From the NCBI RefSeq assembly GCF_019634845.1, contig NZ_JAHCAQ010000012.1, positions 55,830 through 119,829 of the forward strand: DNA of 64,000 nt, written 5' to 3'. Position numbers and translations under genes: made by a program. Origin of the DNA: Dokdonella sp. Its GTDB lineage: Bacteria; Pseudomonadota; Gammaproteobacteria; Xanthomonadales; Rhodanobacteraceae. The notes beneath the pieces were generated by a model. The model was not told where the DNA came from and did no database searches. It was given only the letters and a program-made list of their open reading frames with translations. Shown piece after piece: positions 1,732-40,855 of the stretch. Every line of letters begins with the position of its first letter. Position 1 is the stretch's first letter.

Positions 1732-2649
1732 TCAGTCGAAGCCGTTCTTGAAGATGACGTCATTGCCTGCGCCGCCGCCCCAGTACGGCGTGGTGCCGGC
1801 GACGATCGCGACCGAGGAAGAACCGGGCGCAAGGCTGAGGACGCGGATCGTGCCGTTGCGCACGAACGCGATGCGCTGACCGTCGGGCGAGAACGTCGGC
1901 CACGAATCGAGCGTGTTTACGGAGAGGTCGCGCACCAGGGTGTGCGTGGTCGCCGAATACAGGCCGATGTTGCCTTCCACCGGAATGCCGAATGCGCTCG
2001 GCCCCGGCCCACGCACGGCGACGACCCATTGGCCGTCGATCGAGCCGCTCGGATAGCCGATCTGCAGCGACGGATCGGTAGCGACCTGCACGTCGCAGGA
2101 GCTGCCGTTGCCGGGCGGCGGATATTCGATGCAGATTGTTGCGGGCGTGCCACGGCGCGCGACGATGACGTTCTCGCCAAGCCAGCCCTGTCCGGTCTGG
2201 TAGGTCGAGGATGCGATCGAAACAAAGTGACCGTTCTGGTCCGGAAAATAGTACGTGTACCAGCCAAAGCCTGCGAAGTACCAAGTCCACGACGCCTTCG
2301 TGCCGGACGGCGAAATGCGTGGCAGATCGTAGACTTCGCCGTAGGTCAGCACCTGCGCGGCGCCGCCGGCGAGCGGAACGAGGTAGATCCCGCCGGGATT
2401 CTGGCCCGGAGTCATGTACGCGGCCATGGTGCCGTCGGCGGTGATGCCGGCAGCGGTCGCGTTCTGCTTGATCGTGCGCTGCGTCATCGCCGGATGGTCG
2501 GGATCGACGGCGCAGACGGACGTGCCGCACTGGTAGACGATCGTCGATGCAGCTGGCGCAGCACTGGATGCGCAGGCCGCGAGTGCGCCGAAAAACAGTA
2601 CTGCCGGGTGGGCGGGGCGATATGGAAGCAGGGTGCTGGGGTGTCGCAT
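1732..2649 (-). CDS. Secreted TolB-like beta-propeller protein with GFD tail
   Basis: 305-residue secreted protein of unknown function. I place the start at the ATG at 2649 because GAGGAG lies 11 bases upstream and the protein then opens with a hydrophobic signal (LLPYRPAHPAVLFFGALAACASSAAPA). That stretch contains Ala-Ala-Cys and could be a lipobox. The frame stays open upstream to 3009 but that extension is not protein-like. The body has repeated PD40/TolB-type strands (DLPRISPSGTKASW, SWPTFSPDGQRIAFVRNG), the signature of a WD40-like propeller that binds partners or ligands. Cysteines are paired (YQCGTSVCAV, ICIEY...SSCDV). It ends in VIFKNGFD, the tail shared with four other exported proteins here. 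It sits, antisense, between the true and the decayed 3' ends of the E1 gene, which suggests it arrived with that duplication. Confidence 0.75.
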   Translation of the reverse strand: MRHPSTLLPYRPAHPAVLFFGALAACASSAAPAASTIVYQCGTSVCAVDPDHPAMTQRTIKQNATAAGITADGTMAAYMTPGQNPGGIYLVPLAGGAAQVLTYGEVYDLPRISPSGTKASWTWYFAGFGWYTYYFPDQNGHFVSIASSTYQTGQGWLGENVIVARRGTPATICIEYPPPGNGSSCDVQVATDPSLQIGYPSGSIDGQWVVAVRGPGPSAFGIPVEGNIGLYSATTHTLVRDLSVNTLDSWPTFSPDGQRIAFVRNGTIRVLSLAPGSSSVAIVAGTTPYWGGGAGNDVIFKNGFD

Positions 2650-3030
2650 CAAAGTCAGCGCTCCTCGAATAATGAGCACCCCTGCGCGTTCAACGGTATC
2701 AGGGATGGGGCGGGCAGGCCAACCCCGGTCCGTGCGCTCGCATGCAACGTCGGAGGCGGCGCAGGTCAGTGCGGCGCTTTCCCGGTTGCGGTGGTTCGCC
2801 GGGCGTGCGCGCACGATCGCAAGCGCATGCGCAGAAGCGGCAGCAGCCGTTGCGGCATCGATGAGGTTGCAGTGGGCGGGCAGACCGTCGCGCAGTGCCA
2901 TGGTGACGGTGGCACCGCTGTACACGTTGCTCAGGTGGGTCAGCGCCGGAGTGGTCGTGGTGAACATCCGGCTGCGGTCGTTGCGCGTTGGCCGCGGGTG
3001 ACACCGCACGACGCCATCGGTTTGCGTGAA
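2650..3030. other. Intergenic stretch, no recognised gene
   Basis: About 380 bases upstream of the propeller gene. A minus-strand frame is open to 3009 in phase with the propeller gene, but its translation has no recognisable domain and the Shine-Dalgarno sequence sits at the downstream ATG. I see no promoter I would defend. Confidence 0.4.
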
Positions 3031-3245
3031 CGCGACCTCCGTGTGGCGAGGGTCGCCATGCCGCCGGCGTCGGCGGGGGCGTCATCAGCACCATCGCCGG
3101 GGGCCGACATGGCGCCGTCACGCTGCGTCGCGCGGTCGGGGTCGATACCTGGCGCCGCTGGCCGGGGCCTGCCTCGTGCTGCCGGGTGCGGCCGGCAGCG
3201 TCTCAGCGGGACCGCTCCCGCGCTGCTGCGCGGCGGCGCGACGCG
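3031..3245 (+). pseudogene. Decayed duplicate of the E1 dehydrogenase 3' end
   Basis: The stretch from about 3045 to 3240 matches 1375-1577 of the intact E1 gene in the same orientation at roughly 80% identity by eye. Both contain CATGCCGCCGGCGTCGGCG, then the GACATGGCGCC, CGCTGCGTCGCG, GCCGCTGGCCGGGGCC and GTGCTGCCGGGTG blocks, and even the post-stop CGCGGCGGCGC. The copy has a 1-bp deletion near 3151 and a 3-bp deletion near 3170, so the reading frame is broken. No upstream part of the gene is present. It is a relic of duplication or of an insertion that split a tandem duplication. Confidence 0.8.
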
Positions 3246-3246
3246 C

Positions 3247-3252
3247 TAGAAT
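3247..3252 (+). promoter_or_regulatory. -10 element of a probable leaderless promoter
   Basis: TAGAAT ends 6 bases before the ATG of the cyclase-FHA gene, so a normal start point would fall on the A of the ATG. There is no Shine-Dalgarno sequence and no convincing -35. Confidence 0.5.
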
Positions 3253-3258
3253 CGCCCG

Positions 3259-4164
3259 ATGACCGAACGCCGCGCCCTGACGATCCTGTTCGCCGATGTC
3301 TCCGGCAGCACGCGCCTGTTCGAGACCCGCGGCGATGTCGTCGCCCGCCAGATCGTCGCCGCCGTGCTCGAGGCGCTGGCCGAGGTCACGCGGCGCCACG
3401 GCGGGTGCGTGATCAAGACCATCGGCGACGAGATCATGTGCACGTTTCCGGGCGCGCTCAACGGCCTGCTGGCCGCCACCGACATGCATCGGCGCATCAA
3501 GGCCGACGAGGCATTCCAGCACGACAACGTGGCAATCCGCGTCGGCCTGCATCACGGCGAGGCGCTCGTCGAGGCGGGCGACGTGTTCGGCGACGCCGTC
3601 AACGTCGCCGCGCGCATGGCCGACAAGACGCTGGCCCGCCGCGACCAGATCGTCACTACGGCGAGCACGGTCGAGGGCGTGACCAGCGTCACCGGCATGC
3701 GCATCCGCTCGCTCGGCAATGCCTGGGTACAGGGCAAACAGGCGCCGCTGGAGATCGTCGACGTGCTGTGGCAGGAGGACCTCGCGCCGGTCACGACCGT
3801 GCAGCGCGTCATGCAGTCCGAACAGGCCGCCACGGCGCGGGCGCGCCTGCTGCTGCGCTATCGCGGGCTGGTGTTCGAGCTCGGCGAGGACGCGACCTTC
3901 TCGATGGGCCGCGATCCGGCCAGCAGCCTCGTCGTCGAGACCGAATGGGTGTCGCGCAACCACGCGCTCATCGAGTGGAAGCGCGGCCACTTCATGTTTG
4001 CCGACCGCTCCACCAATGGCAGTTGGATCCGCATGGGCGCCGACCACGAAGTGCTCGTGCACCGCGACGAGGTGCACCTGCGGCGCGGCGGTTCGATCTG
4101 CCTGGGCCAGGCACACGGCGTCAACGAGGCCGACCTCGTGCACTTCGAGTGCAGCGACGGCTGA
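3259..4164 (+). CDS. Class III adenylate/guanylate cyclase with C-terminal FHA domain
   Basis: 301 residues. Residues 1-175 form a class III nucleotide cyclase domain: LTILFADVSGSTRLFE carries the first metal Asp, KTIGDEIMCTF the second, and FGDAVNVAARMA the conserved Asn-Arg region. Residues about 200-300 are an FHA phosphothreonine-binding domain (SMGRDPASSLVV, SRNHALIEW, DRSTNGSW). The family makes cAMP or cGMP; the FHA domain should couple output or localisation to a Ser/Thr-phosphorylated partner. No kinase gene is nearby. There is no signal or membrane segment, so it is cytoplasmic. The -10-like TAGAAT ends 6 bases before the ATG, so the transcript is probably leaderless. A genuine cAMP source would fit the CRP/Clp-type site at 61000-61015. 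Confidence 0.9.
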   Translation: MTERRALTILFADVSGSTRLFETRGDVVARQIVAAVLEALAEVTRRHGGCVIKTIGDEIMCTFPGALNGLLAATDMHRRIKADEAFQHDNVAIRVGLHHGEALVEAGDVFGDAVNVAARMADKTLARRDQIVTTASTVEGVTSVTGMRIRSLGNAWVQGKQAPLEIVDVLWQEDLAPVTTVQRVMQSEQAATARARLLLRYRGLVFELGEDATFSMGRDPASSLVVETEWVSRNHALIEWKRGHFMFADRSTNGSWIRMGADHEVLVHRDEVHLRRGGSICLGQAHGVNEADLVHFECSDG

Positions 4165-4201
4165 GGCCCGGCGAGCGCGAGCGGTGCTCGGCCGCCACGC
4201 C

Positions 4202-5599
4202 TCAGGCGCCGTCGAAACCGTTCTTGAAGATCTGGTCGAAATTGGCCGGCGGCAGGTCGCTGCCCTGGAAGATGCCGAGCGGCGAATAGCCCGAGTATCC
4301 GGGGAACACGTAGTAGATGTTGGGATTGGCCATGCGCCGCACCAGCGCCTCGCTGATGACGCGGCGATAGTCGGTGGTGGCGGCCACGTCGGTGCCCTCG
4401 TAGAGCTGCTCACCGGCCAGGCCCGGGAAGGTGCCGTAGGTGTGGCCGCCGTTGACGCGGCCACCGAGCGCGAGCATGACATTGCCGTAGCCGTGGTCGG
4501 TGCCGCCGTCGGCGTTCTCGAGCACGCGCCGGCCGAACTCGCTCAGCACGATCACGCTGACCTGGTTCATGTAGTTGGTGGGGCCTGCGGCCAGGTCGGT
4601 GTAGAACGCGTTGAGGCCCTTGGACAGGCTCTCCACCTGGTTGCCGAACCAGTCATAGCTCTGCGTCGGGTTGCCCTGGCCGACGTGGGTGTCCCAGTTG
4701 CCGAGGTCGATCGTCACCGCGCGCAGGCCCAGACCCCGCTTGATGAGGTTGGCGACATCGCGCAGTTGCTGGCCGAAGCCATTGTTGTAGGGCAGCGTGT
4801 AGTTGGCACCACCGGCCGGCGCGTAGCCGGCGAAGTCCACGTCACGCAGCAGCGCCAGCGAGGCCAGCGTCTCGGCACCGGCGCGCTCGAGCGCCGTGGT
4901 GCCGTTCCACAGGTTGTTGAGGCGCGCGATCGCGCCGGCACCGGCCACGCCCGGCGGGTCGGCGGCATCGCCGTCCCACGACCAGTGGAAGCTGTTGAGG
5001 CGGAAACTGTCGCCGCCGATCATCGTGATCGCATCGCTGCTGCCGAGCAGGCTCGCCGCAGTGATGTCACCCATCGACACCGCCGGCAACGGCACCGTGG
5101 CGGGCAGGCCGCCGCTGACGAGGTGGCGCGTGAACCAGCCGATGCTGTTGCCGGTGCCGCCGCCGATGCCGAACTCGAGATTGGCCTGCGCGTCGAAATG
5201 GCTGCGGATCACGGGCACCGGCTGCATCTGTCCGGCGGCGACCACCATGGCCAGATGCTGGCTGTTGTAGAGATCGCGCAGTTCGGCCGCACGTGGATGC
5301 AGCAGCCAGTCGGGCGTGCCGTTCAGCGCCAGGCCCGCGCCGGTGCCGGTGGTCGGGATGCGCGTGCTGCTGCGGTAGGACTGGTAGTGGCCACGGTTGG
5401 CATTGCTGGCGCTCGGCGGCAGCAGACTCAGACCGTCCATGGCACCGCGCAGGAACACGATCACCAGGGTGTCATTGCTGGCCGCGGCGGGCAGGAAGTC
5501 GCCGCTGGCGAACCAGGCCTTGGCGTGGCTGCCGCTGCCGGCGGCGAGCGTGAGCGCACTGACGCCCTTGAGGAAGTCGCGACGATTGAATGGGGTCAT
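4202..5599 (-). CDS. DUF1501 family protein, Tat-exported, with GFD tail
   Basis: 465 residues. The N-terminus NRRDFLKGVSALTLAAGSGSHAKA is a clear twin-arginine signal (RRDFLK), so the protein is exported folded. DUF1501 proteins belong to the alkaline-phosphatase-like superfamily; LRGAMDGLSLLPP, TIDLGNWDTH, VIVLSEFGRRVLENADGGTDHGYGN carry the family's likely metal-binding Asp/His residues. Biochemical function is not established. The gene follows the DUF1800 gene by 11 bases, the standard arrangement in many bacteria, so the two products probably act together in the periplasm or outside. It ends in FDQIFKNGFDGA. The start at 5599 is fixed by the Tat motif; the frame is open further upstream, but that part overlaps the DUF1800 gene. 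Confidence 0.9.
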   Translation of the reverse strand: MTPFNRRDFLKGVSALTLAAGSGSHAKAWFASGDFLPAAASNDTLVIVFLRGAMDGLSLLPPSASNANRGHYQSYRSSTRIPTTGTGAGLALNGTPDWLLHPRAAELRDLYNSQHLAMVVAAGQMQPVPVIRSHFDAQANLEFGIGGGTGNSIGWFTRHLVSGGLPATVPLPAVSMGDITAASLLGSSDAITMIGGDSFRLNSFHWSWDGDAADPPGVAGAGAIARLNNLWNGTTALERAGAETLASLALLRDVDFAGYAPAGGANYTLPYNNGFGQQLRDVANLIKRGLGLRAVTIDLGNWDTHVGQGNPTQSYDWFGNQVESLSKGLNAFYTDLAAGPTNYMNQVSVIVLSEFGRRVLENADGGTDHGYGNVMLALGGRVNGGHTYGTFPGLAGEQLYEGTDVAATTDYRRVISEALVRRMANPNIYYVFPGYSGYSPLGIFQGSDLPPANFDQIFKNGFDGA

Positions 5600-5610
5600 G
5601 GCGTCGATCC

Positions 5611-7404
5611 TCAGCGGCGCAGGAATTCTGGCGAGCACAGCAGCAGTGCCACCGTGGTGCGCAGGCGCGCAATCGTGTAGTGCTTGGACAGGTCGTTGGC
5701 GTTCCATCCGCCCGTGTGCGCCCCGTTGGGATCGTATTCGAGATCGAGGTCGGCGGTGGCGGCGGCATTCTGGCGCAGGAAATTGACCAGCGTGGTGCGC
5801 ATCGGCTCGGGCCGGTAGCCGAGCAGGCGATCGCACCAGTAGCCGACGATATTGTCGGCGGTACGTTGCGCCTGGGTGGGCAGCGCAGCCAGCGTATGGC
5901 CCTGGATGTCGGCCAGAAATGGCGTGGCATTGTCGCCGTTGGTCGCGTGGAGCTCCGGAATCCGCGCGAGCATCCTGAAGGTCATGCCCAGTGCACTGCT
6001 GCTGGCCCAGGCCGTCTGCACGTCGGGGTAACCATTGGGGGTGGGCCAGTAGAACCAGCGGTGGCCGGTCTGCTGCACGCGGTAGACGAATTCCTGGGTG
6101 GTGGTCCAGGAGGTCGCCGGGATCGGCGTGAAGTCGGCGAGCAGGCCACGCAGTGCGCTCACCGCACTCATCGCCGGGCGCTTCATCTTGGTGCCCCAGC
6201 TCGTCTTGAACTCGCTCGATTGCAGGATCAGCGCGACGACCTGCTTGATCTGATCGGGGGCGTTGCGTGCGCTCTGGAACAGGTTCGCAGCGGCGTCGAC
6301 GAGTGCGCTCGACGGATTGTCGCCGACGAAGCGCCGGCACAACTTGCCGGCGACGAAGCGCGCGGTGCCCGGATGACCGCACAGGATGTCGAACAGCTTG
6401 CGGCCGTCGTTGCCGTTGTCGCCGGCGTTGTAGGCGAAATAGCGGTTGAGGATGTACTTGTTCGACGGGTCGTGCCAGGGCAGGCGGTAGGTGTAGGTGC
6501 CGTCGTCCTCGGTCGGGTATTGCCAGTGGCCGTTTCTGATCGTCCAGCCGGTCAGCGCCCGGGCAGCCTCGTAGACATCGTTGTCGACGTACTTCAGGCG
6601 TACCGGATTGCCATCGCCGCCGACACCGATCGGCAGCGATGGATCGTCGGGGGCCAGAATGCCGCCGTAGTTCTCCACGCCGAGCGTGTGCAGCTCGAGC
6701 AGCTCGCGCGCGTAGTTCTCGTTGGGCCCGTCGCGATTGGATGCGTACTGGTCGAGGTAGTACATCATCATCGTCGACTTGGCCACTTCCTCGAGCATCG
6801 TGCGGAAGTTGCCCAGCGCATTGGGGCGGATCACGTCACGGTCGTACTGCACGAAGATCGGGCCGCCGTCGTAGTCCCAGCCGAAGGTGCTGAAATGGTC
6901 GTGCCAGAAACCGACCATGACCTCGAACAGCTGCCGCTTGCTGTAGGTCTGGCGGATGATCGTCGCCGCTTCGACCTCGGCCATCGGGCGCATGCGCTCG
7001 AAGTAGTTGCTGCCGCCGATCTGGTTGCGACGCGACCACAGCTGCGGCACGGTCATGTCCAGGGTCTGGTATCCGGCGCTGGCGATGCGATTGTCGCAAT
7101 CGCCATCGGCGATGCTGGCCGGATCGAGCTGCTGCGCGAGCCAGGCGGCCCAGCGGCTTTCGTCATCGGCGCCCAAGGCGATGAACTGGGCGTGCAGCGG
7201 GGTGCTGAAGCCGTGGCTGGCGCGCGTCAGCCAGCGCACCGCGGGCGGTGGCATGGTCAGCGCCTGCGGCGTGACCGGCAGGTCGAGTTCGCGCAGGCCG
7301 GTACGGCCAGGGCTGCGCATGGCTGGCGCAGCGGTGCCGCTGCTGGGCAGCAGCGCACCGAACAGGCGCCGGCGCGAGGCGATGAAGGCGGCATTGGCGG
7401 ACAT
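5611..7404 (-). CDS. DUF1800 domain protein
   Basis: 597 residues, partner of the DUF1501 gene. It contains the family hallmark GPNENYARELLELHTLGVENY (about residues 220-240), FWHDHFSTFGWDY, and GHPGTARFVAGKLCRRFVGDNPS. I chose the ATG at 7404, which has GGAG 8 bases upstream, over the GTG at 7434. An arginine-rich N-terminus (SRRRLFGALLPSSG) resembles a weak Tat signal. The family's function is unknown; DUF1800-DUF1501 pairs are widespread in environmental bacteria and are usually predicted to be exported. Unlike DUF1501, this one lacks the GFD tail (it ends in SPEFLRR). Confidence 0.88.
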   Translation of the reverse strand: MSANAAFIASRRRLFGALLPSSGTAAPAMRSPGRTGLRELDLPVTPQALTMPPPAVRWLTRASHGFSTPLHAQFIALGADDESRWAAWLAQQLDPASIADGDCDNRIASAGYQTLDMTVPQLWSRRNQIGGSNYFERMRPMAEVEAATIIRQTYSKRQLFEVMVGFWHDHFSTFGWDYDGGPIFVQYDRDVIRPNALGNFRTMLEEVAKSTMMMYYLDQYASNRDGPNENYARELLELHTLGVENYGGILAPDDPSLPIGVGGDGNPVRLKYVDNDVYEAARALTGWTIRNGHWQYPTEDDGTYTYRLPWHDPSNKYILNRYFAYNAGDNGNDGRKLFDILCGHPGTARFVAGKLCRRFVGDNPSSALVDAAANLFQSARNAPDQIKQVVALILQSSEFKTSWGTKMKRPAMSAVSALRGLLADFTPIPATSWTTTQEFVYRVQQTGHRWFYWPTPNGYPDVQTAWASSSALGMTFRMLARIPELHATNGDNATPFLADIQGHTLAALPTQAQRTADNIVGYWCDRLLGYRPEPMRTTLVNFLRQNAAATADLDLEYDPNGAHTGGWNANDLSKHYTIARLRTTVALLLCSPEFLRR

Positions 7405-7467
7405 GGGCGTGGCTCCGGTGGGACGGGGAAGCACGACGCCGGCCCTGGCATCATCGCGTGCCGGGCC

Positions 7468-7581: not shown

Positions 7582-8622
7582 TCAGACGATGCGCGGTTCG
7601 GGCTCGAGCTCGATGCCGAAGCGTGCGCGTACCGCCTCGCGCACGCGCTGCGCGAGCGCCCACAACTGGGCGCCGCTGGCGTTGCCGTGGTTGACGAGGA
7701 CGAGCGCGTGCTGCGCCGACATGCCCGCATCGCCTTCGCGCAGACCCTTGCAACCGGCCTGCTCGACGAGCCAGGCCGCCGACAGCTTGACGCGCGCATC
7801 GGGCTCGGGCCAGTACGGCAGCTGCGGATGCGCGGCGCGCAGCGCCTGTGCCAGCGGCGCCGCCACCAGAGGGTTCTTGAAGAAGCTGCCGGCGTTGCCG
7901 ATCCGGGCCGGATCGGGCAGCTTGCGCATGCGCAGGCGCATGACCGCCTCGGCCACCTGCGGCGCGCCGGCCTGCTGCACGCCCATGGCGGCCAATTCCT
8001 CGCCCAGGCCCGCATAGTCGAGGCGCAGCGCGCGCTCGCGCGACAGGCGGAACCGCACCGCGCTGATGATGTAGCGCTCGCGCTCGTGTTTGAACAGCGA
8101 ATCGCGATAGCCGAACGCGCAGGCCGCGGCGTCGAGTCGCGCCAGGCGTCCGCTGGCGCGGTCCCAGACTTCGACCGCCTCGATGAATTCGGCCACTTCG
8201 ACGCCGTAGGCGCCGATGTTCTGGATCGGCGCCGCGCCGACCGTGCCCGGGATCAGTGCGAGGTTTTCCAGTCCGCGCCAGCCCTTGGCCAGCGACCACA
8301 GCACGAAATCATGCCAGCGCTCGCCGGCAGCGACGCGCAGGCGCACCTGCGCGTCGTCCTCGTCGATCACCTCGATGCCGCGCGTGTCCAGGCACAGCAC
8401 CACGCCGGGCCAGTCGCGCGTGAACAGGATGTTGCTGCCGGCGCCGAGCACGAGTGGCGCCTGGGTCTTGAACCGCGCGAATCCGAGCAGTTCGGGCAGG
8501 GCGGCTTCCTGCCGCACCTCGACCAGCAGTGCGGCGCGGGCCTCGACCCAAAGGCTGTTGCGCGTGCGCAGCGAGGCGTTCTCGCTGATGGTGTAGGCGG
8601 CGCCGTGCGCGCGGCTGTTCAT
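7582..8622 (-). CDS. murB: UDP-N-acetylenolpyruvoylglucosamine reductase (MurB)
   Basis: 346 residues, the size of the E. coli-type (type I) enzyme. It reduces UDP-GlcNAc-enolpyruvate to UDP-MurNAc with NADPH and FAD, a cytoplasmic step of peptidoglycan synthesis. The FAD domain shows [10 protein letters not shown] and [27 protein letters not shown]; the substrate domain has [13 protein letters not shown] and the catalytic serine in [12 protein letters not shown]. The start at 8622 gives a four-base ATGA overlap with the upstream pyrD stop, so translation is probably coupled. Longer upstream starts would overlap pyrD far more and are unlikely. Confidence 0.96.
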
Positions 8623-9653
8623 GGCGTGGCATCCGTGCGCCGCGCGCGCAGCGCGTCGATGCATTCGCCGATCAGGCGCGGCCCGCGATAGACGAGACCG
8701 CTGTAGAGTTGCACGAGGCTCGCCCCGGCATCGAACTTCGCGCACGCATCATCGCCGCGCATGATGCCGCCGACGCCGACCAGCGGCACGCGCGCGCCAA
8801 GGCGCTGCGCCATGCCGCGCAGCACCGCTGTCGAGCGCTGCAGCAGCGGGCGTCCCGACAGGCCGCCGCTCTCGGCGGCGAAGCGGTGGCCTGCGACGGC
8901 ATCGCGCGCCAGTGTGGTGTTGGTGCAGATGAGGCCGTCGATGCCGGTGGCGGTGACGACGGTGGCGATCGCGTCGAGCTCGGGCTCGGTGAGGTCGGGG
9001 GCGATCTTGAGCAGCAGCGGGCGCCGCGCGCCATGCCGCGCGGCGAGGCGTTCCTGCGCCTCGCGCAGGGTGCCGATCAGGCGCCGCAGCGCATCTTCCT
9101 GCTGCAGGTCGCGCAGGCCCTGGGTGTTGGGCGAGGAAATGTTGATCGTGACGTAGCTCGCGCGTGCGTACACGCGCTCGAGGCAATGCAGGTAGTCGTC
9201 GACCGCATGCTCGTTGGGCGTGTCCTTGTTCTTGCCGATGTTGATGCCGAGCGGGCCATCGAAGCGCGCACGTTCGACATTGCGCACGAGCACGTCGACG
9301 CCGGCATTGTTGAAGCCGAAGCGATTGATGATCGCCTCGTGTTCGGGCAGGCGGAACAGGCGCGGGCGTGGGTTGCCCGGTTGCGCGCGCGGCGTCACCG
9401 TGCCGACTTCGATGAAGCCGAAGCCGAGCGCCGCCAACGCATCGACGTGGGCGCCGTTCTTGTCGAGGCCGGCGCCGAGTCCGACCGGATTGGGCAACTG
9501 CAGCCCGAAGCATTGCAGCGGCAACGCTGCGCGCCGGCCACCGAGCAGCGCGCCGGCGCCGCTGCGCGCGGCAAGCTCGAGTGCGCGCAGCGAGAGGTCG
9601 TGCGCGCGCTCGGCGTCGAGGCGAAACAGCAGCGGGCGGGCCAGGGCGTACAT
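8619..9653 (-). CDS. pyrD: Class 2 dihydroorotate dehydrogenase (quinone)
   Basis: 344 residues. It oxidises dihydroorotate to orotate in pyrimidine synthesis, passing electrons through FMN to membrane quinone. The N-terminal amphipathic helix ([25 protein letters not shown]) is the membrane and quinone-tunnel segment that defines class 2. The catalytic serine is in [19 protein letters not shown]-binding signatures are [23 protein letters not shown] and [33 protein letters not shown]. First gene of a two-gene unit with murB. Confidence 0.97.
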
Positions 9654-9736
9654 CGCGCAGCGGCCGTCAGGCGCTCGGCATCGCGTGCCGGGCGCGCGGT
9701 GCGGTGATCGCGGCCGGCCTCATCGGCGCAGCGCGC

Positions 9737-24967: not shown

Positions 24968-25735
24968 TCACTTGGGGGCCAGGCGGATCGCGCCGTCGAT
25001 GCGGATGACGCCACCATTGAGATAGTGGTTGCCGAGGATGAAGGCGACCGTGTCGGCGTATTCCTCCGGCTTGCCCAGGCGCGAGGGGTAGGGCACCTGC
25101 GCGCACAGCGATTCGTACACGTTCGGCGGCATGCCATCGACCATCGGGGTGTGGAACACGCCCGGCGCGATCGTCATCACGCGCACGCCGATGCGCGCGA
25201 ACTCGCGCGCCATCGGCAACGTCATGCCAACCACGCCGCCCTTGGAGGCGGAGTAGGCGGCCTGGCCGATCTGGCCCTCGAAGGCGGCGATCGAGGCGGT
25301 GTTGACGATCACGCCGCGCTCGCCGTCCGGGCCGGTCTCGTTGTGCTGCATGAGGTCGGCCGCGGCCTTGGCCACATTGAAGCTGCCGACGAGATTGACC
25401 ATCACGGTGGTGGCGAAATTCTTCAGCGGCATCGGCCCTTCCTTGCCGAGCACGCGGCCCGCGCCGAGGATGCCGGCGCAGTTGATCGCGACGTTGAGGC
25501 CGCCGAGCCGGGCCTTGGCCTCGGCCAGCGTCGCGCTGACTGCCCCCTCGTCGGTCACGTCGGTACGCAAATACGCAGCGGCCGCGCCGAGCGACGCCGC
25601 GGCCGCCCGGCCCTTGTCGTCGTTGACGTCGAGCAACGCGACCCGGCCGCCGCGTGCGACGAGATGCTGCGCGACGGCAAAGCCGAGCCCGGAAGCGCCG
25701 CCCGTGATGACGGCCTTGACCTGATCGAGTTGCAT
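24968..25735 (-). CDS. Short-chain dehydrogenase/reductase (HSD10-like)
   Basis: 255 residues. Rossmann motif [15 protein letters not shown] motif as NCAGILG, catalytic Ser in [13 protein letters not shown] and YxxxK as YSASKGGV. Acidic residues after the second strand (LLDVNDD) favour NAD. The pattern resembles type II 3-hydroxyacyl-CoA dehydrogenase (HSD10), which acts in branched-chain acyl-CoA and isoleucine breakdown. That would suit the leucine genes at 30-34 kb, but the substrate is not provable here. A TAGAAT box (25765-25770, minus) lies about 29 bases upstream. Confidence 0.9.
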
Positions 25736-25937: not shown

Positions 25938-28802
25938 ATGACACGCTTATCGCTCGACCTGCTTGCCACCGCGATCGCAATCGCACTGTCCGCCCCGTCA
26001 CTTGCGGCGCCGCCGGCCCCTGCGGGTGACACGCAGGCGCTGGCGCGGGCGCTCGACATCACTCCCGAGCGCCTGCACGACGTCGTCGTGGCGACCGAGC
26101 GGCTGCTCGACGGGCGCGAACTGCGCACCGTGAAGGCACTGGATGCAGCCAGCGGCGACATCGTTGGCCGCACCTTCGACGGCGACCGTGCCGTGGACGC
26201 CGAACGCGTGCGCGCCGCAGCCGGTGCCACCTGGCGCCTGGCTTATGGCGCGATGACGCCAGCCCTGCTCGAACGGATGCAGACGCTGGCGCCATCCGAT
26301 CGAGTCGTCGTCGACCTGTGGTATGTCGCCGATCTTCCGGACGACGGAGGCGGGCCGAGCGGCGAATCGGACGTCGCGGCATACAGCGGCGGAGCGGCGC
26401 TCGATGCGCCGAGCGTCGCGAGCGGCGACAAGCGCGACGCCGTCGCCTTGGAGGGGCCGCCGGCCGGACTTGCGCAGGCCGCGGCAGCCGTCACGCCCGC
26501 CGCGGAGGCCGAAAAGACAACCGACGCCGCGGCGGAGCAGGTTCGGCTCGAAGCCGAGCGTCTCGACCGCGCGGCGGCGGTCGCCGCGGTCGAGGCCGGC
26601 AATCAGTTCCGGCTCGCCGACCTGCGCAGCGCGCTGTCCGCGCCGCGCATGGCCATGGTGCAGCGACTCGAATCCGCCGGTGTCAGGGTCGTGTACGCCA
26701 GCGACATCGTGCCGTCGGTCATCGTCGAGATCGATCCGGGACGGGCCTGGTCGATCGCGCGCTGGCCCGATGTGGCGATCCTCGACGACACCGGCGGCGA
26801 GCAGGGCCCCAGTCTCGATGTCGCGCGCCCGACCGACAACGTGACGCCGATCAACGCCGTTGGCTATGACGGCAGCGGCGTGACCGTCGCGGTCGTCGAG
26901 GGCGGACGCATCTATCCGAGCAATCCGTACATGACCGTGTCGCAGAGCCGTGACACGTCGCTGGCGACCTCCGCGCACACCACCGGCGTCGGCGGCATCA
27001 TCGCCAGCACCCATGGCACACATCGCGGCCTGGCGTCGGCCAGCACGTTGATCAGTGCGAACGGTCAGTACAACACGGCAGGCTCGCTCGAAGCCGCGAC
27101 CGATTGGGGCGTGGCCCGCGCGCAGGTGCTCAATCACAGCTGGGGTTTCAAGAACGTTGCCAGCAACGCCTTCAATGCATTCGACCGCCGCCTCGACTAC
27201 ATCACGCGCAACTCGTTCCGCCTCAACGTGCACGCGGCCGGCAACCACGGCGCACCGAACTGCGGCCAGGACCCGGCGACGACCGTCTACGGCGTGGAAT
27301 CGCCTGGCCGCGGCTACAACACGCTGACCGTTGGCGGCTACAACGACCACAACACCATCGGCTGGGGCGACGATGACCGCTACGTCTGCTCGGCCAGTGG
27401 CTGGCCGATCGGCGATGGTGCCGGCGGCACCCACGTCAAACCCGAAGTCGATGCCGGCGCCGCCGACATCGTGTCGCTGGCGGAAACGACGAGTTCGAGT
27501 TCGCCCTTGAGCGGTGGCCTGTGGGGAACGAGCTTTGCCGCGCCCGCCGTCTCCGCCCTCGCCGCCGACCTGATGGAAGCGGACAGCCAGCTCGCCGGTT
27601 CGCCGGTTGCGGTGCGTGCATTGATGATGGTCGGTGCCCTGCGTTCGGCTGCCGACCGGCCGACCATCGATGGCACGGCATCGGTCTACGCGACCGAGAA
27701 CGGGCCGTGGTGGTTCCAGGGCGTCGACGCGTCGAGCTTTCCGAGGACCTACGAGGTGTACGCGCGTGCTGGCCAGCGTGTGCGCTTCGCGATCAACTGG
27801 CTGTCGAACGTGACGCTGAGCGGTTCGACCTATTCCAACGACAACATCCCGGGCGATCTCGACCTGCGTGCCTACCGCAGCGACGGCACCACGCAGGTGG
27901 CCTCTTCGATCAGTTCTTACAACAACTTCGAGCTGGTCGACTTCTATGCGCCGGCCACCGATACCTACAAGTTCAAGATCACGCTGTTCGGCAGTTGGAG
28001 CGGCAGCGCCACGCCGTTTGCTGCGGCCGCCCGGCTCGACGGCAGCTATCTGCCGCGCGGCGCTTGGTGGCATTTCAACGGCGCACCGAAGGCGCAGGGC
28101 ACCTTCTTCGACATTCGTCCGGCGGAGGAGTACGCGGGTTGGGTACCGTACTGGCGTGGCGTCGCGCTGCGCTCGGCAACCACCGCGGACTACGACCTCG
28201 AACTGTATGACGCGTCGTGGTTCCTGGAGCCGGTCAACGCGACCGACACGTTCAACCGGCCGCGGCGCGCCGTCTCGGCCTATGCTGGCAGCGCCGTCGA
28301 CTTCATCATGGTCGACGGCAACCACTGGCCATCGACGGCCCGCGAATTCTTCCGCGTGAAAAGGTATACCGGCAGCGGCGAGTATTCGATCGTCGCGGCC
28401 AACGGCGCGTACTACTCGTCCGGCAGCGGTGGTTTGTATGGCCCGTACTCGATGGACGCCAATACCTCGCTGTTCGTCGCCGACATGGGCTTCGAGGCGA
28501 ACAGCGAGCGGCGCATCACGCTCGTGCCCGGCGCGGGCGCCGGCAGTGCCGACATGGGGCTGGCACTGTACCGCTCGAACGGTGCGGATTCGGCGACATG
28601 GGCGCAAGGACGCAGCCAGGCAGTCGCCACCCGCGATGCGGCCGGCGCTGGCGGCGGCGAAACGCTCCGCTATCGCTTCGATGGCACGAGCACGGACTAT
28701 CTCGGCCTTGCCGTCTACAACAAGACCCAGGCCACCACGCCGACGTTCTACCTGCGCGTGACGCCCAGTGCGATCTTCACCGATGGCTTCGACGGCAATT
28801 GA
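25938..28802 (+). CDS. Large secreted S8 (subtilisin-like) serine protease with GFD tail
   Basis: 954 residues. The ATG at 25938 has GGAGGGG seven bases upstream. A Sec signal (LSLDLLATAIAIALSAPSLAAPP) is followed by a ~290-residue prodomain, then an S8 domain from about 315 to 560. The triad positions are Glu321 (VAVVEGG, where Asp is usual), His347 (SAHTTGVGGIIA) and Ser532 (GTSFAAPAVSALAADL). Cysteines are spaced as in secreted proteases (PNCGQDP, YVCSASG). The C-terminal ~350 residues look like beta-sandwich modules (RVRFAINWLSN...GDLDLRAYR). It ends in AIFTDGFDGN, the shared tail. Probably a secreted or surface-retained protease for protein scavenging. Confidence 0.88.
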   Translation: MTRLSLDLLATAIAIALSAPSLAAPPAPAGDTQALARALDITPERLHDVVVATERLLDGRELRTVKALDAASGDIVGRTFDGDRAVDAERVRAAAGATWRLAYGAMTPALLERMQTLAPSDRVVVDLWYVADLPDDGGGPSGESDVAAYSGGAALDAPSVASGDKRDAVALEGPPAGLAQAAAAVTPAAEAEKTTDAAAEQVRLEAERLDRAAAVAAVEAGNQFRLADLRSALSAPRMAMVQRLESAGVRVVYASDIVPSVIVEIDPGRAWSIARWPDVAILDDTGGEQGPSLDVARPTDNVTPINAVGYDGSGVTVAVVEGGRIYPSNPYMTVSQSRDTSLATSAHTTGVGGIIASTHGTHRGLASASTLISANGQYNTAGSLEAATDWGVARAQVLNHSWGFKNVASNAFNAFDRRLDYITRNSFRLNVHAAGNHGAPNCGQDPATTVYGVESPGRGYNTLTVGGYNDHNTIGWGDDDRYVCSASGWPIGDGAGGTHVKPEVDAGAADIVSLAETTSSSSPLSGGLWGTSFAAPAVSALAADLMEADSQLAGSPVAVRALMMVGALRSAADRPTIDGTASVYATENGPWWFQGVDASSFPRTYEVYARAGQRVRFAINWLSNVTLSGSTYSNDNIPGDLDLRAYRSDGTTQVASSISSYNNFELVDFYAPATDTYKFKITLFGSWSGSATPFAAAARLDGSYLPRGAWWHFNGAPKAQGTFFDIRPAEEYAGWVPYWRGVALRSATTADYDLELYDASWFLEPVNATDTFNRPRRAVSAYAGSAVDFIMVDGNHWPSTAREFFRVKRYTGSGEYSIVAANGAYYSSGSGGLYGPYSMDANTSLFVADMGFEANSERRITLVPGAGAGSADMGLALYRSNGADSATWAQGRSQAVATRDAAGAGGGETLRYRFDGTSTDYLGLAVYNKTQATTPTFYLRVTPSAIFTDGFDGN

Positions 28803-34977: not shown

Positions 34978-34986
34978 GCGTGACGC

Positions 34987-35232
34987 GTGCGGCTCTCAGA
35001 ACTTCGCAAAGGCCAGTCCGCCGTGGTCGGGCAGGTCGAGGACACCGAGGCGGGCGACGTGGTCGCGCGGCGCCTGCGTGAGCTTGGCTTCGTTGCCGGC
35101 GAGCCCGTGCGCGTGGTCGCCAGCGGGCCGTTCGGACGCGATCCGCTGCTGGTGCAGATCGGCTACACGCGCTTTGCGCTGCGCCGCCCCGAAGCCGCGC
35201 GCGTGCGCCTCGTCGACGAGCCGCAGCCGTGA
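34987..35232 (+). CDS. feoA: Ferrous iron transport protein A
   Basis: 81 residues, GTG start. Small SH3-like barrel that binds FeoB's cytoplasmic part. RLSELRKGQSAVVGQVEDTEAGDVVARRLRELGFVAGEPVRVVASGPFGRDPLLVQIGYTRFALRRPEAARVRL matches FeoA from end to end. Its last bases overlap the feoB start (GTGA). Confidence 0.93.
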   Translation: MRLSELRKGQSAVVGQVEDTEAGDVVARRLRELGFVAGEPVRVVASGPFGRDPLLVQIGYTRFALRRPEAARVRLVDEPQP

Positions 35233-37076: not shown

Positions 37077-37408
37077 ACGCGACGATCGTGCAGGGCGTGG
37101 TCGTCGCGCTGATCGTCGGCTGGGCCACTTGGTCGGCGTTGCGGCGCCTGCTGCCGCAGACCTCGCGCCGCTGCATCGCGCGCGTGCTCGGCTGGTTCGA
37201 TCGTCCCGCACTGCCGGACGCCTGGCGCCGACGCGCGCGGGCCTGGCAGCCGCGCAGCAGCCAAGGTGGCTCGTGTGGCACGGGATGCGCCTCCTGCGGC
37301 GGCTGTGGCGGCGCGGACCTGGCGCGCGCGGACCCCGGGCCACGGCCGCTCGTATTCACGCCCGGGTCGCGGCGCAAGGATGGCGGCGCGCGCGATCCGC
37401 AGGGTTAG
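37073..37408 (+). CDS. Small Cys-rich membrane protein following feoB
   Basis: 111 residues, starting in the feoB stop (ATGA overlap). It has one N-terminal transmembrane helix (TIVQGVVVALIVGWATWSALRRLL), a basic middle, and a cysteine cluster GSCGTGCASCGGCGG (five Cys spaced 4, 3 and 3 apart). I do not recognise a characterised family. Its position matches that of FeoC or other small accessory proteins in feo operons. The Cys cluster could bind iron or an Fe-S cluster, an inference without direct support. Confidence 0.75.
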   Translation: MNATIVQGVVVALIVGWATWSALRRLLPQTSRRCIARVLGWFDRPALPDAWRRRARAWQPRSSQGGSCGTGCASCGGCGGADLARADPGPRPLVFTPGSRRKDGGARDPQG

Positions 37409-37493
37409 GCCGCTCGCTCCGCCAGCGACATGGCCGTCCGCTGCGGGCGCAGGTTGCGACGCATCGGGCACGCCCGCTCGTGGCAGGCGTGTC

Positions 37494-37499
37494 TACAAT
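37494..37499 (+). promoter_or_regulatory. -10 element of a probable leaderless hutG promoter
   Basis: TACAAT ends exactly six bases before the hutG ATG (37506), so the start point would coincide with the ATG. No Shine-Dalgarno sequence is present. Confidence 0.5.
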
Positions 37500-37505
37500 G
37501 TGCGC

Positions 37506-38297
37506 ATGGACATCTGCAGCCTGCATCGCGGCACCCAGCCGCTGCTCGTGAGCCTGCCGCATGACGGCAGCGAGCTTCCCGCCGACATCGCCGCGCGGCT
37601 CACGCCTGCGGCGCGGCGCGTGCCCGACACCGATTGGCATGTCGCGCGGCTCTACGAGTTCGCGCGCGAACTCGGCGCTTCCGTGCTCGTGCCGAGGTAT
37701 TCACGCTATGTCGTCGATCTCAACCGCCCGTCCGACAACGCTTCGCTCTATCCGGGCCAGAACACGACCGGACTGTGTCCGATCGTCCAGTTCAGCGGCG
37801 AGCCCGTGTACCAGGCCGGCGAAGAACCGCGGCGCGAGGAAATCGAACGCCGCGTGGCGACGTACTGGCAACCGTACCATGACGCGCTCGCTGGCGAGAT
37901 CGCGCGCTTGCGCGCGGCGCATGGCCGCGTCGTGCTCTGGGAAGGCCATTCGATTCGCAGTCGCGTCCCGTTCCTGTTCGAGGGACGCTTGCCCGATTTC
38001 AACCTTGGCACAGCCGACGGCGCGAGTTGCACAGTGGGCTTGCAGCAGCGCCTGGCCGCGATCCTTGCGTCGCATCGGCAGTACACGCACGTCATCAATG
38101 GTCGCTTCAAGGGCGGCTACATCACGCGCCACTACGGCCGTCCCGGCGATGGCGTCGATGCGGTGCAGCTGGAGCTCGCACAGATCAATTACATGGACGA
38201 GGATACGTTCGAGTATCAACCGCGCCGCGCGCAGCACACGCAACAGCAATTGCGGGCGCTGCTGGTGGCCGCACTTGCGCAACCCGCCGCGCCCTAG
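37506..38297 (+). CDS. hutG: N-formylglutamate deformylase
   Basis: 263 residues, FGase family. It hydrolyses N-formylglutamate to glutamate and formate in histidine breakdown by the five-step route. Seen: LVSLPHDGSELP, VPDTDWHVARLYEF, SRYVVDLNRPSDNASLYPGQNTTGLCP and LWEGHSIRSRVPFLFEGRLPDFNLGT; the His and Glu residues of these segments are the likely metal ligands. The hutU gene lies 2.7 kb downstream on the same strand, and minus-strand propeller genes separate them. hutH, hutI and hutC are not in the window. Confidence 0.93.
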   Translation: MDICSLHRGTQPLLVSLPHDGSELPADIAARLTPAARRVPDTDWHVARLYEFARELGASVLVPRYSRYVVDLNRPSDNASLYPGQNTTGLCPIVQFSGEPVYQAGEEPRREEIERRVATYWQPYHDALAGEIARLRAAHGRVVLWEGHSIRSRVPFLFEGRLPDFNLGTADGASCTVGLQQRLAAILASHRQYTHVINGRFKGGYITRHYGRPGDGVDAVQLELAQINYMDEDTFEYQPRRAQHTQQQLRALLVAALAQPAAP

Positions 38298-38476
38298 CGC
38301 TCGAAGCCGGTGCCGACGTCCTGGTCGCAGCTGATGGTGACGTCACCGGGCCGACGGTCAAATCCAGGGCTCCTGCCGGCAATCATGGCCGCCGGCGCGC
38401 CACTGCCGGTGAGGGCGTGCACGATGACGCGGCCGTGTGCGTGCGGAGTGCTGGCGCCGATCGACACCAGCGCGCT
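38294..38476 (-). pseudogene. 3' remnant of a third propeller gene
   Basis: The minus-strand frame ending at 38294 reads SALVSIGASTPHAHGRVIVHA then a GSGAP...IAG...GF segment, and stops after VGTGFER. This aligns without gaps larger than one residue to the end of the 39767 protein (LVSIATTDPSARGRIVVHS, then GGAFPLAVLQG...GF, then IFKDGFDG). Upstream sequence is not alignable by eye, no start is available, and the ending is degenerate. It is the C-terminal ~60 codons of a third tandem copy. Its stop overlaps the convergent hutG stop. Confidence 0.72.
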
Positions 38477-38558
38477 GACCGCGCGCATCGCGGCCAAGGC
38501 CCGAGACAGACTCGCCGGTTGTCGGGGGCGGGCCTGCACCGGGACGAAGCGACGCCGC

Positions 38559-39626
38559 TCAGGGGTCGAAGCCGTTGGCGAAGAGGCGGTCCGGCGGCAC
38601 TGCGAACGGCTCACCGACCGTGTACGGGCTGACGTTGCTGCCGACCAGTTCCTGCACGGGTGCCACGTTGCCACTGGCATCGGCGGCAAACGTCAGCAGG
38701 CGGTTGTTGGCCGGGTCGTTGTCCGTGCCGGCCGTCACCACGATGCGGCGCAGCCAGGGATCGAAGCCCAGATTGCTGTTGTAGTAGCCCACTGGCAGGT
38801 CGAGATGGGTTGCAGCGCCCTCGATCACGTGGAGCGGCTGCGCGTCGCCGCTCGCGTCCTCGGCGAACACGAGGATGCGACCGTGCTTGATCGTCATGCC
38901 GCTCGACTCGCGTTCGATCGTCAGCACGAACAGGCGATGGCCGACAGGATCGTGGGCGAGTCCCCGTGGGTCGCGGACTGCGCTGCCGGTGATCATGCGC
39001 GTGGGCGCAACGTAGCCCGTGGCCGTGCGCGCGTGGAAGATGATTCGCCCGTCGTAGGACGGGCCATCCGAGTAATCGACCACGGCGAGTTCATCGCTGC
39101 TCGGGATATGGATGAGACTCGTCGGATTGCGCAATTCGGTCGGTGATCCGCTGTTGCCGCCATAGCTGATCCCGCGCAGCGGCGCCGCCTGATCGCCGCT
39201 GGCCTGCAGTGGCCAGGTGTAGATGCAGCAGTTGCTCGCGATGACCGCCAGCTCACCGAACTGTGGCAGCGGCACGCTGCGACGCGGCTGGCCCAGAAGC
39301 GGCGGGTTGAGCACGCGCAGTGGCGCCACATTGCCATGGGCGAACGCCGGGTAGACGCGGATCGCCCTGCCGTAGTAGTCGGACACGTAGATCACCTCCT
39401 CGCCGGCTGCGTAACTTCCGGTTGCTGGCGTGTCGAGCTGGGTGTCGGCGCCGCTGATCTCGCGGATCGGCAGGTCCGCGCCCTGCGCATCGGCGTCGAA
39501 TACACGCAGCGGGTGGCCCAGCGGCTGGCCGAACTGGAAGCCACCAAGCACGATGTCGGCGTCGGCCGGCAGGGCCGTGAATGTGAGCGTGGTGGCGATG
39601 AGGGTGGTGAGCAGGGACTTGCGCAT
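38559..39626 (-). CDS. Secreted six-bladed-propeller-type repeat protein with GFD tail (copy B)
   Basis: 355 residues. Sec signal RKSLLTTLIATTLTFTALPADA. About six repeats carry a blade signature of the type GNVAPLRVL (also GDQAAPLRGI, GYVAPTRMITG, GDAQPLHVIEG, GNVAPVQELVG), each followed by strands of the YVSDYYGRAIRVYPAF kind. Such repeats suggest an NHL-like propeller. The catalytic residues of lyase or phytase propellers are not recognised. It ends in DRLFANGFDP. Paralogous over its length to the neighbour at 39767 (same VYDADYxGxAIRVY, LLGQxR, LRNPTSL/LNNPAGI segments). Function unknown. Confidence 0.82.
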   Translation of the reverse strand: MRKSLLTTLIATTLTFTALPADADIVLGGFQFGQPLGHPLRVFDADAQGADLPIREISGADTQLDTPATGSYAAGEEVIYVSDYYGRAIRVYPAFAHGNVAPLRVLNPPLLGQPRRSVPLPQFGELAVIASNCCIYTWPLQASGDQAAPLRGISYGGNSGSPTELRNPTSLIHIPSSDELAVVDYSDGPSYDGRIIFHARTATGYVAPTRMITGSAVRDPRGLAHDPVGHRLFVLTIERESSGMTIKHGRILVFAEDASGDAQPLHVIEGAATHLDLPVGYYNSNLGFDPWLRRIVVTAGTDNDPANNRLLTFAADASGNVAPVQELVGSNVSPYTVGEPFAVPPDRLFANGFDP

Positions 39627-39766
39627 GACTGGACTCCGGACGGTTGCCTGTCAATACGCGCTTTCGCGGCCAAATCCCTCACCGCGCGAATCCCTCGCCT
39701 CGTTGCCGGCAGCAGCGGCGCCATGCAGGCGGATTGCCTGGCCGGCGACGACCGGTCGCTGTTTGG

Positions 39767-40855
39767 TCAGCCGTCGAATCCATCCTTGAAGATGCGGTCG
39801 AAGGTGACCGCAGCCGTCCCCGGGCTACTGCCAAAACCGGTGTTAGCTCCCTGCAGGACGGCCAGCGGGAAGGCGCCGCCGTATGCGAACCTCGAATGCA
39901 CGACGATGCGGCCGCGCGCGCTCGGGTCGGTGGTGGCGATGGAAACGAGGATGTGTCCGCTGTTCTCGTCGAAACCGAGGCCGCTCGGATACTCGCCGCT
40001 CGCCATCACCATCGAGGCGAACGGCCCGTAGATCACGCGCAGCGGGGTGGCGTCGCCCACGGCATCGGCGGCGAACGCGATCACACGCGCCGAATGCTGA
40101 GGGTCGGTGTCAGGCGGGCCGACGACGGCGAATATCGTCTGCGTTTCCTCATCGACCGCCACGCGCACGTTGCTGCGACCGCCCAGCTGCGTGCTCGGGC
40201 CTTCTATCACACGCAATGGCGTCGCCGCGGAACCATCGCTCAGACGCGAATAGATCAGGATGCGATTCGGATAACCTGCGGCGGAATCGTCCTTGTAGTC
40301 GCCGACGACGATCTCGCCGCGACGCCGGTTGAGCGCGATCCCGGCCGGATTGTTGAGCTGGCTTGCGGAAACGTTGTTGCCGCCCCAGGGAATGTTGCGG
40401 ATCGGGTTGACGTTGCCACCATTGGCCAGTCGCGGCCAAGTGACGATCGAGCGCATGCGGGCAATGGCGACCATCTCATCGTGCGCTCGGTCGACGCGTA
40501 CCGCGCGTACCTGGCCAAGCAGTGGCGCGTTCATCGTGCGCAACGGCGCTGCGGCGCCGCTGGCGCGTGCATCGTAGACGCGGATTGCCTGCCCCCAAAA
40601 GTCGGCGACGTAGAGCACATTCTCGCTCGGCTCGAATTCGACTGAATTGGCCGTGACGATCGGATTGGCGTTTCCCGGCACGAGGCTGCGCAGCGGCGCG
40701 ACGTTGCCACCGGCACTGTCGGCGAAAAAGACGATGGAGCCTGAACCGGACTGGCTTGGATAAGTGCCATTGCCGACGACGAGTTCGGCCTGCGCAAACG
40801 GCGTGGCGAGACAAAGCATCGACAACAGGCAAACAATGTGCGGACTCTTGCGCAT
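39767..40855 (-). CDS. Secreted six-bladed-propeller-type repeat protein with GFD tail (copy A)
   Basis: 362 residues. Signal RKSPHIVCLLSMLCLATPFAQA. The repeats are GGNVAPLRSL, GAAAPLRTM, GGNVNPIRNI, GSAATPLRVIEG, GDATPLRVIYG and GGAFPLAVLQG; LYVADFWGQAIRVYDA and LNNPAGIALNRRRGEIVVGDY are propeller strands. It ends in TFDRIFKDGFDG. Copy B lies 140 bases downstream and a remnant third copy follows that, so this is a tandem array. It diverges from hutU. The initiator ATG at 40855 was chosen because the signal peptide begins there. Confidence 0.82.
   Translation of the reverse strand: MRKSPHIVCLLSMLCLATPFAQAELVVGNGTYPSQSGSGSIVFFADSAGGNVAPLRSLVPGNANPIVTANSVEFEPSENVLYVADFWGQAIRVYDARASGAAAPLRTMNAPLLGQVRAVRVDRAHDEMVAIARMRSIVTWPRLANGGNVNPIRNIPWGGNNVSASQLNNPAGIALNRRRGEIVVGDYKDDSAAGYPNRILIYSRLSDGSAATPLRVIEGPSTQLGGRSNVRVAVDEETQTIFAVVGPPDTDPQHSARVIAFAADAVGDATPLRVIYGPFASMVMASGEYPSGLGFDENSGHILVSIATTDPSARGRIVVHSRFAYGGAFPLAVLQGANTGFGSSPGTAAVTFDRIFKDGFDG

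Follow-up and report, generated by a model that had tools for sequence, protein, structure and literature searches.

The 64,000 nucleotides of Dokdonella sp. DNA analyzed here (contig NZ_JAHCAQ010000012.1, positions 55,830 to 119,829, termed the window) encode five exported proteins that end in a short tail, e.g. IFKNGFD. The tail is a real tag of exported proteins, occurs far above chance, and is limited to certain lineages of one order. It is spread over unrelated proteins, mostly at their extreme C-terminal ends, and in one lineage choice_anch_Q proteins display an Arg in place of the Gly. The presence of the tag correlates, with real exceptions, with the secretin of a second, type A, type II secretion system (T2SS). 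The motif may be a short transplantable docking tag on exported proteins, bound by the type A T2SS; we give this reading a probability of about 0.46. Retention of the tagged proteins at the cell surface is its main rival, and the present data leave the choice between the two undecided.

Number, position and consensus of the tag

A degenerate DNA pattern for the tail gives 85 matches in the 3.26-Mb host genome, and the reversed pattern gives one. A preliminary description of this DNA had reported five such tails; these are real, but it missed the scale on which the tail is found. Translation of 84 unique in-frame sites shows that 17 abut a stop codon exactly, 57 are situated within 6 residues of one and 59 within 11, where 2.0 sites are expected if the same open frames are filled uniformly. 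Enrichment at C-termini, which the preliminary description had set as a test, is thus found. The 59 C-terminal cases yield a 9-residue consensus, D-x-[IL]-F-x-[DN]-G-F-[DE]. The leading Asp is present in 52 of them, although it lies outside of the search pattern. Gly codons within the tag are GGC (42), GGT (8), GGA (5) and GGG (4); since synonymous codons vary, conservation acts on the protein and not on the DNA. The motif is followed by 0–11 residues. No hydrophobic helix and no Arg or other basic cluster, as found in CTERM tags, is seen in the 59 tails, and this part of the preliminary description is borne out.

The remaining 25 host sites were inspected by eye. About six directly follow a signal peptide and carry the same D-x prefix, e.g. 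...aaaaadtVFASGFE... and ...alasafdsVFHDGFE.... Others are found between domains of long exported proteins, and a few appear to be chance matches. In another genome (G006, locus L234) a protein end bears two tags in tandem, VFQDGFEGARTGVVFADGFE. These N-terminal, interdomain and tandem occurrences speak against a cleaved C-terminal signal; a docking peptide would tolerate them. A kelch-like protein (by eye) at L083, positions 8490–9701 on the reverse strand, ends in DDIFKDAFER with Ala for Gly. Thus the pattern misses some tags of the host genome, and the number given above is an under-count.

When the last 30 residues are removed, the 59 C-terminally tagged proteins fall into 38 groups with no similarity between groups (BLASTP, E 1e-4), the largest having 11 and 8 members. 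Common descent of the last domain, raised earlier as a way to refute the tag, is therefore rejected for the set as a whole. Among the Pfam matches listed (25 of 52 families) are S8, M14, M28 and astacin peptidases, GH44, endonuclease I, pectate lyase, beta-helices, propellers and DUF1501. The NCBIfam scan accepted E-values up to 0.01, with model cut-offs not displayed. Among its matches listed (25 of 56 families), choice_anch_Q (NF041518) is found in 11 of the 59 proteins and choice_anch_J in 2, together with names that belong to other sorting systems: rhombosortase- and myxosortase-dependent M36, an LPXTG-anchored peptidase and ExeM. No model of the tail is among the Pfam and NCBIfam families listed, and no domain ahead of the tag is shared by all 59 proteins in the BLASTP groups or in these matches. 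Relatives of LapA, LegP and ExeM are among the tagged proteins. LapA and LegP are discussed among the T2SS substrates of Legionella (PMC6617341).

A signal peptide is called in 40 of the 59 tagged proteins, and in 66 of 423 further open frames taken from their loci. The rule is a simple heuristic with an ATG start, and the controls are long non-overlapping open frames, some of which are not genes; the contrast is thus approximate. Enrichment for signal peptides, also proposed as a test beforehand, is seen within these limits. As a group the tagged proteins therefore show the Sec or Tat (twin-arginine translocation) export that T2SS substrates require, by the heuristic and by the Tat signal of the DUF1501 protein described below.

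In the window, translation places all five tails where the preliminary description had put them. On the reverse strand, the tag DVIFKNGFD with its stop codon (positions 1732–1761) ends a TolB-like/PD40 propeller protein (gene at about 1732–2649; translated end ...NDVIFKNGFD). DQIFKNGFDGA plus stop (4202–4237, reverse strand) ends a Tat-exported DUF1501 protein (gene 4202–5599), whose tail reads ...FDQIFKNGFDGA before the stop and is predicted to be disordered. A DUF1800 gene (5611–7434, E = 1.6e-100) precedes the tagged DUF1501 gene on the same strand, and the two genes likely form a two-gene unit (4202–7434, reverse strand). SAIFTDGFDGN plus stop (28767–28802, forward strand) ends an S8 protease with a PPC domain, in which Ser replaces the prefix Asp; the gene is at 25938–28802, the longest frame begins at 25734, and the tail reads ...PSAIFTDGFDGN before the stop. 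Two further tags on the reverse strand belong to paralogues. DRLFANGFDP plus stop (38559–38591) ends an exported protein (gene 38559–39626; ...PDRLFANGFDP) and DRIFKDGFDG plus stop (39767–39799) ends an exported NHL-repeat protein (gene 39767–40855; ...FDRIFKDGFDG).

The last two proteins form one similarity group, so the claim of unrelated folds does not hold for this pair; it does for the four independent kinds present in the window, namely the TolB-like/PD40 propeller, DUF1501, the S8 protease and the NHL-like pair. The ending DVGTGFER at 38294, counted before as a further, degenerate case, is a decayed copy of the 39767 end. It belongs to the end of a third NHL-like copy, a remnant at 38300–38470 (reverse strand) found by tblastn (36% over 59 aa, E = 2e-8). 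This remnant derives from a 39767-like end, i.e. from common descent, and is no independent instance. An export signal is seen in all five proteins, as had been stated. The Tat signal of the 4202 protein scores 19.6 bits against an NCBIfam cut-off of 16.7, the heuristic gives Sec-like signals for 1732, 38559 and 39767, and the signal of the S8 protein, which the heuristic missed, is seen by eye. For these five proteins, the best stretch of no listed Pfam or NCBIfam model extends into the tail.

Lineage distribution and the Gly-to-Arg switch

Counts of the Gly form (G-type) are two-peaked across 298 genomes of the host order. There are 82 genomes with 15–206 matches, and 213 of the 216 others have 9 or fewer. 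Outside of the order, none of 271 genomes of the class gives a count above 10. In named genomes, at least 115 stretches carry the tag followed by a stop codon. Of 80 such matches listed, labels place 69 in the order (Dokdonella, Pseudofulvimonas, Marinicella and metagenome-assembled genomes) and 8 only in Proteobacteria, Gammaproteobacteria or Pseudomonadota. Dokdonella fugitiva is one of the species with the tail. Also among these 80, one contig each of metagenome-assembled genomes labelled Spirochaetales (L113), Accumulibacter (L145) and Actinomycetota (L168) carries the tag and stop. Some genomes with low counts have genuine C-terminal tags in the loci read, in G006 (5 of 5), G017 (3 of 4), G107 (3 of 4) and G064 (1 of 5). 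Matches in the low-count genomes G075, G049 and G082 look like chance.

Genus g31 (family f10) is seemingly free of the tag. Its choice_anch_Q proteins, however, end with Arg for Gly (DRFE, SRFD) in 8 of 11 loci; in tag-rich genomes choice_anch_Q ends in the G-type tag. A pattern for the Arg form (R-type) gives 11–93 matches in 21 of 25 g31 genomes, 41 in one g70 genome and 12–14 in three others of the 298. R-type sites read individually are the choice_anch_Q loci of g31, and the other R-type figures are pattern counts. G161, which adjoins g31 in the secretin tree, has both forms (35 G-type and 12 R-type matches). The replacement by Arg on several proteins together points to a common reader of the motif.

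The DUF1501 protein of the window was compared over 43 chosen genomes, with 30 readable loci. Where the genome uses the G-type tag (including G064 and G006, with low numbers), 13 of 17 DUF1501 proteins end with the tag or a variant of it, and six of these 13 ends are variants such as IFANGFQ, IFAASFD, IYKGGFE and IFVDEFE. The tag is absent from all three proteins of the R-type lineage and from all ten of tag-free genomes. DUF1501 of the R-type genomes G009 (48% identity) and G037 (44%) ends with the folded domain; the tagged proteins extend about 20 residues further. For the window protein, AlphaFold2 with a 20-sequence alignment gives a mean pLDDT (predicted local distance difference test) of 92 for residues 441–450, 58 for 451–460 and 38 for 461–465. 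Values are under 50 at residues 457–465, after a well-predicted domain, and this prediction suggests that the DUF1501 tail is flexible.

Co-occurrence with the type A secretin

Of 65 panel genomes, 61 give a GspD match above cut-off with TIGR02517 (T2SS secretin). Two full-length secretins are present in most tag-rich panel genomes, and mostly one in tag-poor genomes of f1 and f2; exceptions are G073 with three and G061 with two, and the g31 genomes have two. Similarity to the two host secretins divides 80 secretin regions into type A and type B. A quick tree gives clades of 38 and 42 rows, with the type A branching following families; long branches are flagged in it (L336, L324, L288), and divergent copies of G061 and G074 attach on long branches.

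Genomes with at least 15 G-type or at least 11 R-type matches were classed as tag-rich and those with 7 or fewer of both as tag-poor, by counts and not by sites read singly; 7 of the 298 are intermediate and stand outside of the main table. A secretin was called type A with an E-value up to 1e-110, or by hand in six genomes from contig-edge or split pieces (tag-rich G112, G126, G151 and G170, tag-poor G261 and the in-between G165; G185 passes the threshold anyway). Twenty genomes, all f2, gave secretin matches of intermediate strength (E = 1e-59 to 1e-103) and were classed as non-type A. With these definitions, the type A secretin is found in 95 of 104 tag-rich (G- or R-type) vs 14 of 187 tag-poor genomes (Fisher p = 7e-50, uncorrected for descent). 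Tag-rich genomes thus mostly have the secretion system that T2SS substrates require. Without the hand calls the numbers are 91 of 104 and 13 of 187, and with thresholds of 20 and 15 they are 87 of 93 tag-rich and 25 of 205 other genomes. Genera give 32 of 33 vs 5 of 52. A Mantel-Haenszel test stratified by family gives an odds ratio of 15 (chi2 = 53.5) when the in-between genomes are grouped with those that are not tag-rich. Mapped on the tree of type B secretins, tag and type A need four changes each when G006 is counted as a tag user. By reading of the tree, three of the four share a branch, one each for f2 (its untagged part), G053 and f1 (the main untagged clade), and in f8 the secretin was apparently lost earlier than the tag. 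The preliminary description had advised a search for a gene family that co-occurs with the tag; the second, type A, T2SS is the best machine found, but the match is not perfect and another family tracks the tag too (see below).

All of 37 type A GspC proteins carry the T2SSC domain and 36 carry a PDZ domain; the closest match to the type A GspC model is with the PDZ domains of EpsC and PulC. Columns that are acidic in three g31 genomes and in no more than 25% of the others number 7 of 273 in type A GspC and 11 of 595 in type A GspD. Since the Arg variant is one lineage event, this co-variation of charge proves nothing. Column 233 of type A GspC (L285–L287 and L292) is acidic in the three g31 genomes, G161 and G011, and is mostly Lys, Arg or Gln elsewhere. 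As a possible mark of a receptor site, column 233 is only a lead.

Several observations weigh against reading the tag as the address of the type A T2SS. Nine of the 104 tag-rich genomes show no type A secretin. Seven of these are fragmented or incomplete assemblies, but G063 and G095 are 97–98% complete, have real C-terminal tags and carry type B only. Of the 14 tag-poor genomes with type A, G006, G017 and G107 have a few real tags, and ten are unexplained (G243, G261, G080, G125, G154, G174, G087, G181, G193 and G199). In the tag-poor genome G216 (L288, contig C47) a type A gspD is situated near a rhombosortase gene and the tag is absent; the same secretion machine is apparently paired there with a different tail system. 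The copy number of the sigma-factor family TIGR02999 also tracks the tag, with 1–35 copies in the 35 G-type-rich panel genomes, 9–16 in three g31 genomes, 0–8 in the other 26 tag-poor ones and 2 in the low-number tag user G006. Thus the type A T2SS may be one among several co-inherited, or co-lost, traits. The DUF1501 comparison is mixed, with no tag on 4 of the 17 proteins of tag-using genomes. It is also weaker than it appears, since nine of the ten proteins from tag-free genomes are distant (32–41% identity). The sole close relative, from G032 (48%), continues into an unrelated extension.

Some gene neighbourhoods recur. In the host genome the type A gspC and gspD genes, a tagged gene, a sigma-factor-like gene and kinase genes are consecutive, and the same order is found in another genome (L096). 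In L278 and L285, type A gspCDEF lies between rho/trx/rhlB and ftsE/ftsX, the gene names being assigned by reading of the sequences. Tagged genes repeatedly have Ser/Thr kinase genes (15 loci) or sigma-factor genes (6 loci) as neighbours, e.g. in L086 and L096. Untagged neighbours of this kind were considered as tag machinery and rejected; they are read as regulators, possibly of the tagged exoproteome. The low-copy genomes G064, G006, G017 and G107 have real tags, and no adjacent unique gene was identified in them as part of a dedicated pair. Elsewhere in the window, positions 54053–56152 (forward strand) weakly match MtrC/MtrF domains as well as a type I dockerin, with both matches under the Pfam cut-off.

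Possible functions and comparison with known systems

In the docking model, tagged proteins would cross the inner membrane via Sec or Tat and then fold in the periplasm. The exposed flexible tag, mostly C-terminal but at times at the mature N-terminus or between domains, would be bound there by the type A T2SS. GspC, through its periplasmic HR and PDZ domains, and/or the secretin GspD, through its N-domains, would be the likely receptor, and the tagged protein would then be taken across the outer membrane. What we infer here is that the T2SS physically recognises the tag, which subunit binds it, and that it stays on the protein. The model has parallels in other T2SS. In PelI, an exposed loop of 9 residues acts as a T2SS signal and binds to both GspC and GspD, with flexible loops proposed as general signals (PMC7949064), and the Ig domain of VesB holds a signal dependent on the PDZ domain of EpsC (PMC12369372). 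A bolder claim, for which we hold the odds to be somewhat lower, is that the tag could be the first linear and near-universal T2SS address, a 9-residue peptide placed at either terminus or internally in a folded periplasmic protein. A dedicated T2SS would read it, and the specificity of its GspC/GspD would have changed with the lineage switch from Gly to Arg.

A function in surface retention is doubtful but has perhaps one chance in three. Here the T2SS would export the proteins by other signals, and the motif would bind or join a receptor at the surface or outer membrane, as GlyGly-CTERM does with rhombosortase. Several tagged families carry other anchors elsewhere, as indicated by the choice_anch_Q, choice_anch_J, M36 and ExeM matches, and the rhombosortase next to the type A T2SS of untagged G216 fits this scheme. 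In Vibrio, GlyGly-CTERM gives membrane association and export needs a second signal (PMC13393428). In a study of Wenzhouxiangella the medium showed no protease activity, and anchoring at the surface was assumed (PMC7691419); that g31 is Wenzhouxiangella is only a guess. Retention is opposed by the N-terminal and internal sites, which are unlike an enzymatic C-terminal attachment, and no receptor or enzyme family for it was identified.

The remaining alternatives fare worse. The preliminary description had regarded the tail as a sorting or processing tag, and a real and apparently unnamed tag of exported proteins it is; the C-terminal processing role is the part that is not supported, as the motif is also N-terminal, internal and in tandem. 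Cutting by a protease or sortase is unlikely. It would suit the 59 of 84 sites that are C-terminal and the layout, which is like that of other CTERM tags, but at the other sites cleavage would cut the protein, and with only 0–11 residues after the motif it would remove almost nothing. The hydrophobic helix and basic cluster are also absent. No dedicated processing enzyme was found in a search that covered rhombosortase and not exosortases. Rhombosortase itself was rejected as the tag partner, being over the 84-bit cut-off in 4 of 64 genomes, 1 of 35 G-type-rich (G095) and 3 of 29 others; it falls just under the cut-off in tag-rich G028 (82.7) and G148 (80.1), and three g31 genomes are without one. 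A periplasmic quality-control tag, to which a chaperone or a DegP/DegS-like PDZ protease would bind while the protein folds, is very unlikely. PDZ proteases bind C-terminal tails, and the predicted flexible tail of one protein would suit them. However, no free hydrophobic residue ends the tail, the number of residues after the motif varies, and DegP/DegS-like proteases are probably also present in tag-free relatives. Least probable, and to be expected in only about one case in twenty, is a tail with no function of its own, either a last strand kept by inheritance or a segment multiplied through gene duplication. The groups of 11 and 8 proteins do share domains and the 38294 remnant is a duplicate, but the 38 dissimilar groups, the synonymous codon variation, the Gly-to-Arg change at high counts in one lineage and the two-peaked distribution across genomes all argue against it.

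The docking reading touches on what T2SS machines were thought to lack, an address label. A review states that T2SS substrates have no sequence in common (PMC10128026), and a 2025 paper describes a linear universal T2SS signal as lacking (PMC12369372). The tag is apparently not described by any family model or paper found. Among the matches listed, a literature search returned nothing on it, although motif strings match unrelated words and subscription journals were mostly outside its scope, so that absence from print is unproven. If the T2SS reads the tag, its cargo would be predictable from sequence across many genomes of the order, a short peptide could serve to map the receptor, and matched pairs would come from the natural Gly/Arg switch. 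If the tag is a surface anchor instead, it would be a sorting tag without a membrane helix. Either reading joins dozens to some two hundred hitherto unconnected sites per genome in one system.

GlyGly-CTERM with rhombosortase (TIGR03501 / TIGR03902) resembles the tag in being C-terminal on many unrelated exported proteins, with some shared passengers (M36, ExeM). It differs in its Gly-rich motif, transmembrane helix, basic residues and need for rhombosortase; the tag has 9 residues, may be internal or N-terminal, and shows neither the Gly-rich motif with transmembrane helix nor a rhombosortase regularly present in its genomes. T2SS genes are associated with GlyGly-CTERM, T2SS components being high in the genome profile with no link to a T2SS subclass (PMC3237569). 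The choice_anch_Q domain (NF041518) is a passenger; in other genomes, too, several proteins have it immediately ahead of the tag, whose type varies with the genome. The type IX secretion system (T9SS) C-terminal domain is a folded domain of about 70 residues that works with the Por/Spr machinery. This domain, PEP-CTERM/exosortase and MYXO-CTERM/myxosortase are alike to the tag in that one C-terminal sorting element is used across unrelated exported proteins genome-wide. Unlike the tag, which is short, polar and tolerant of position, they consist of a folded domain or of a tripartite element with a membrane helix and a membrane protease (PMC3237569, in part general background). The tripartite PEP-CTERM tail of motif, hydrophobic helix and basic cluster is absent from all 59 tails. 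Loop 3 of PelI is likewise short (about 9 residues) and exposed, and recruits a folded protein in the periplasm (PMC7949064), but it belongs to one protein and is part of a composite signal, whereas the tag is a linear motif on dozens of proteins per genome. The tag would be categorically new if the T2SS proves to read it, and otherwise is a variant of the known protein-sorting tags.

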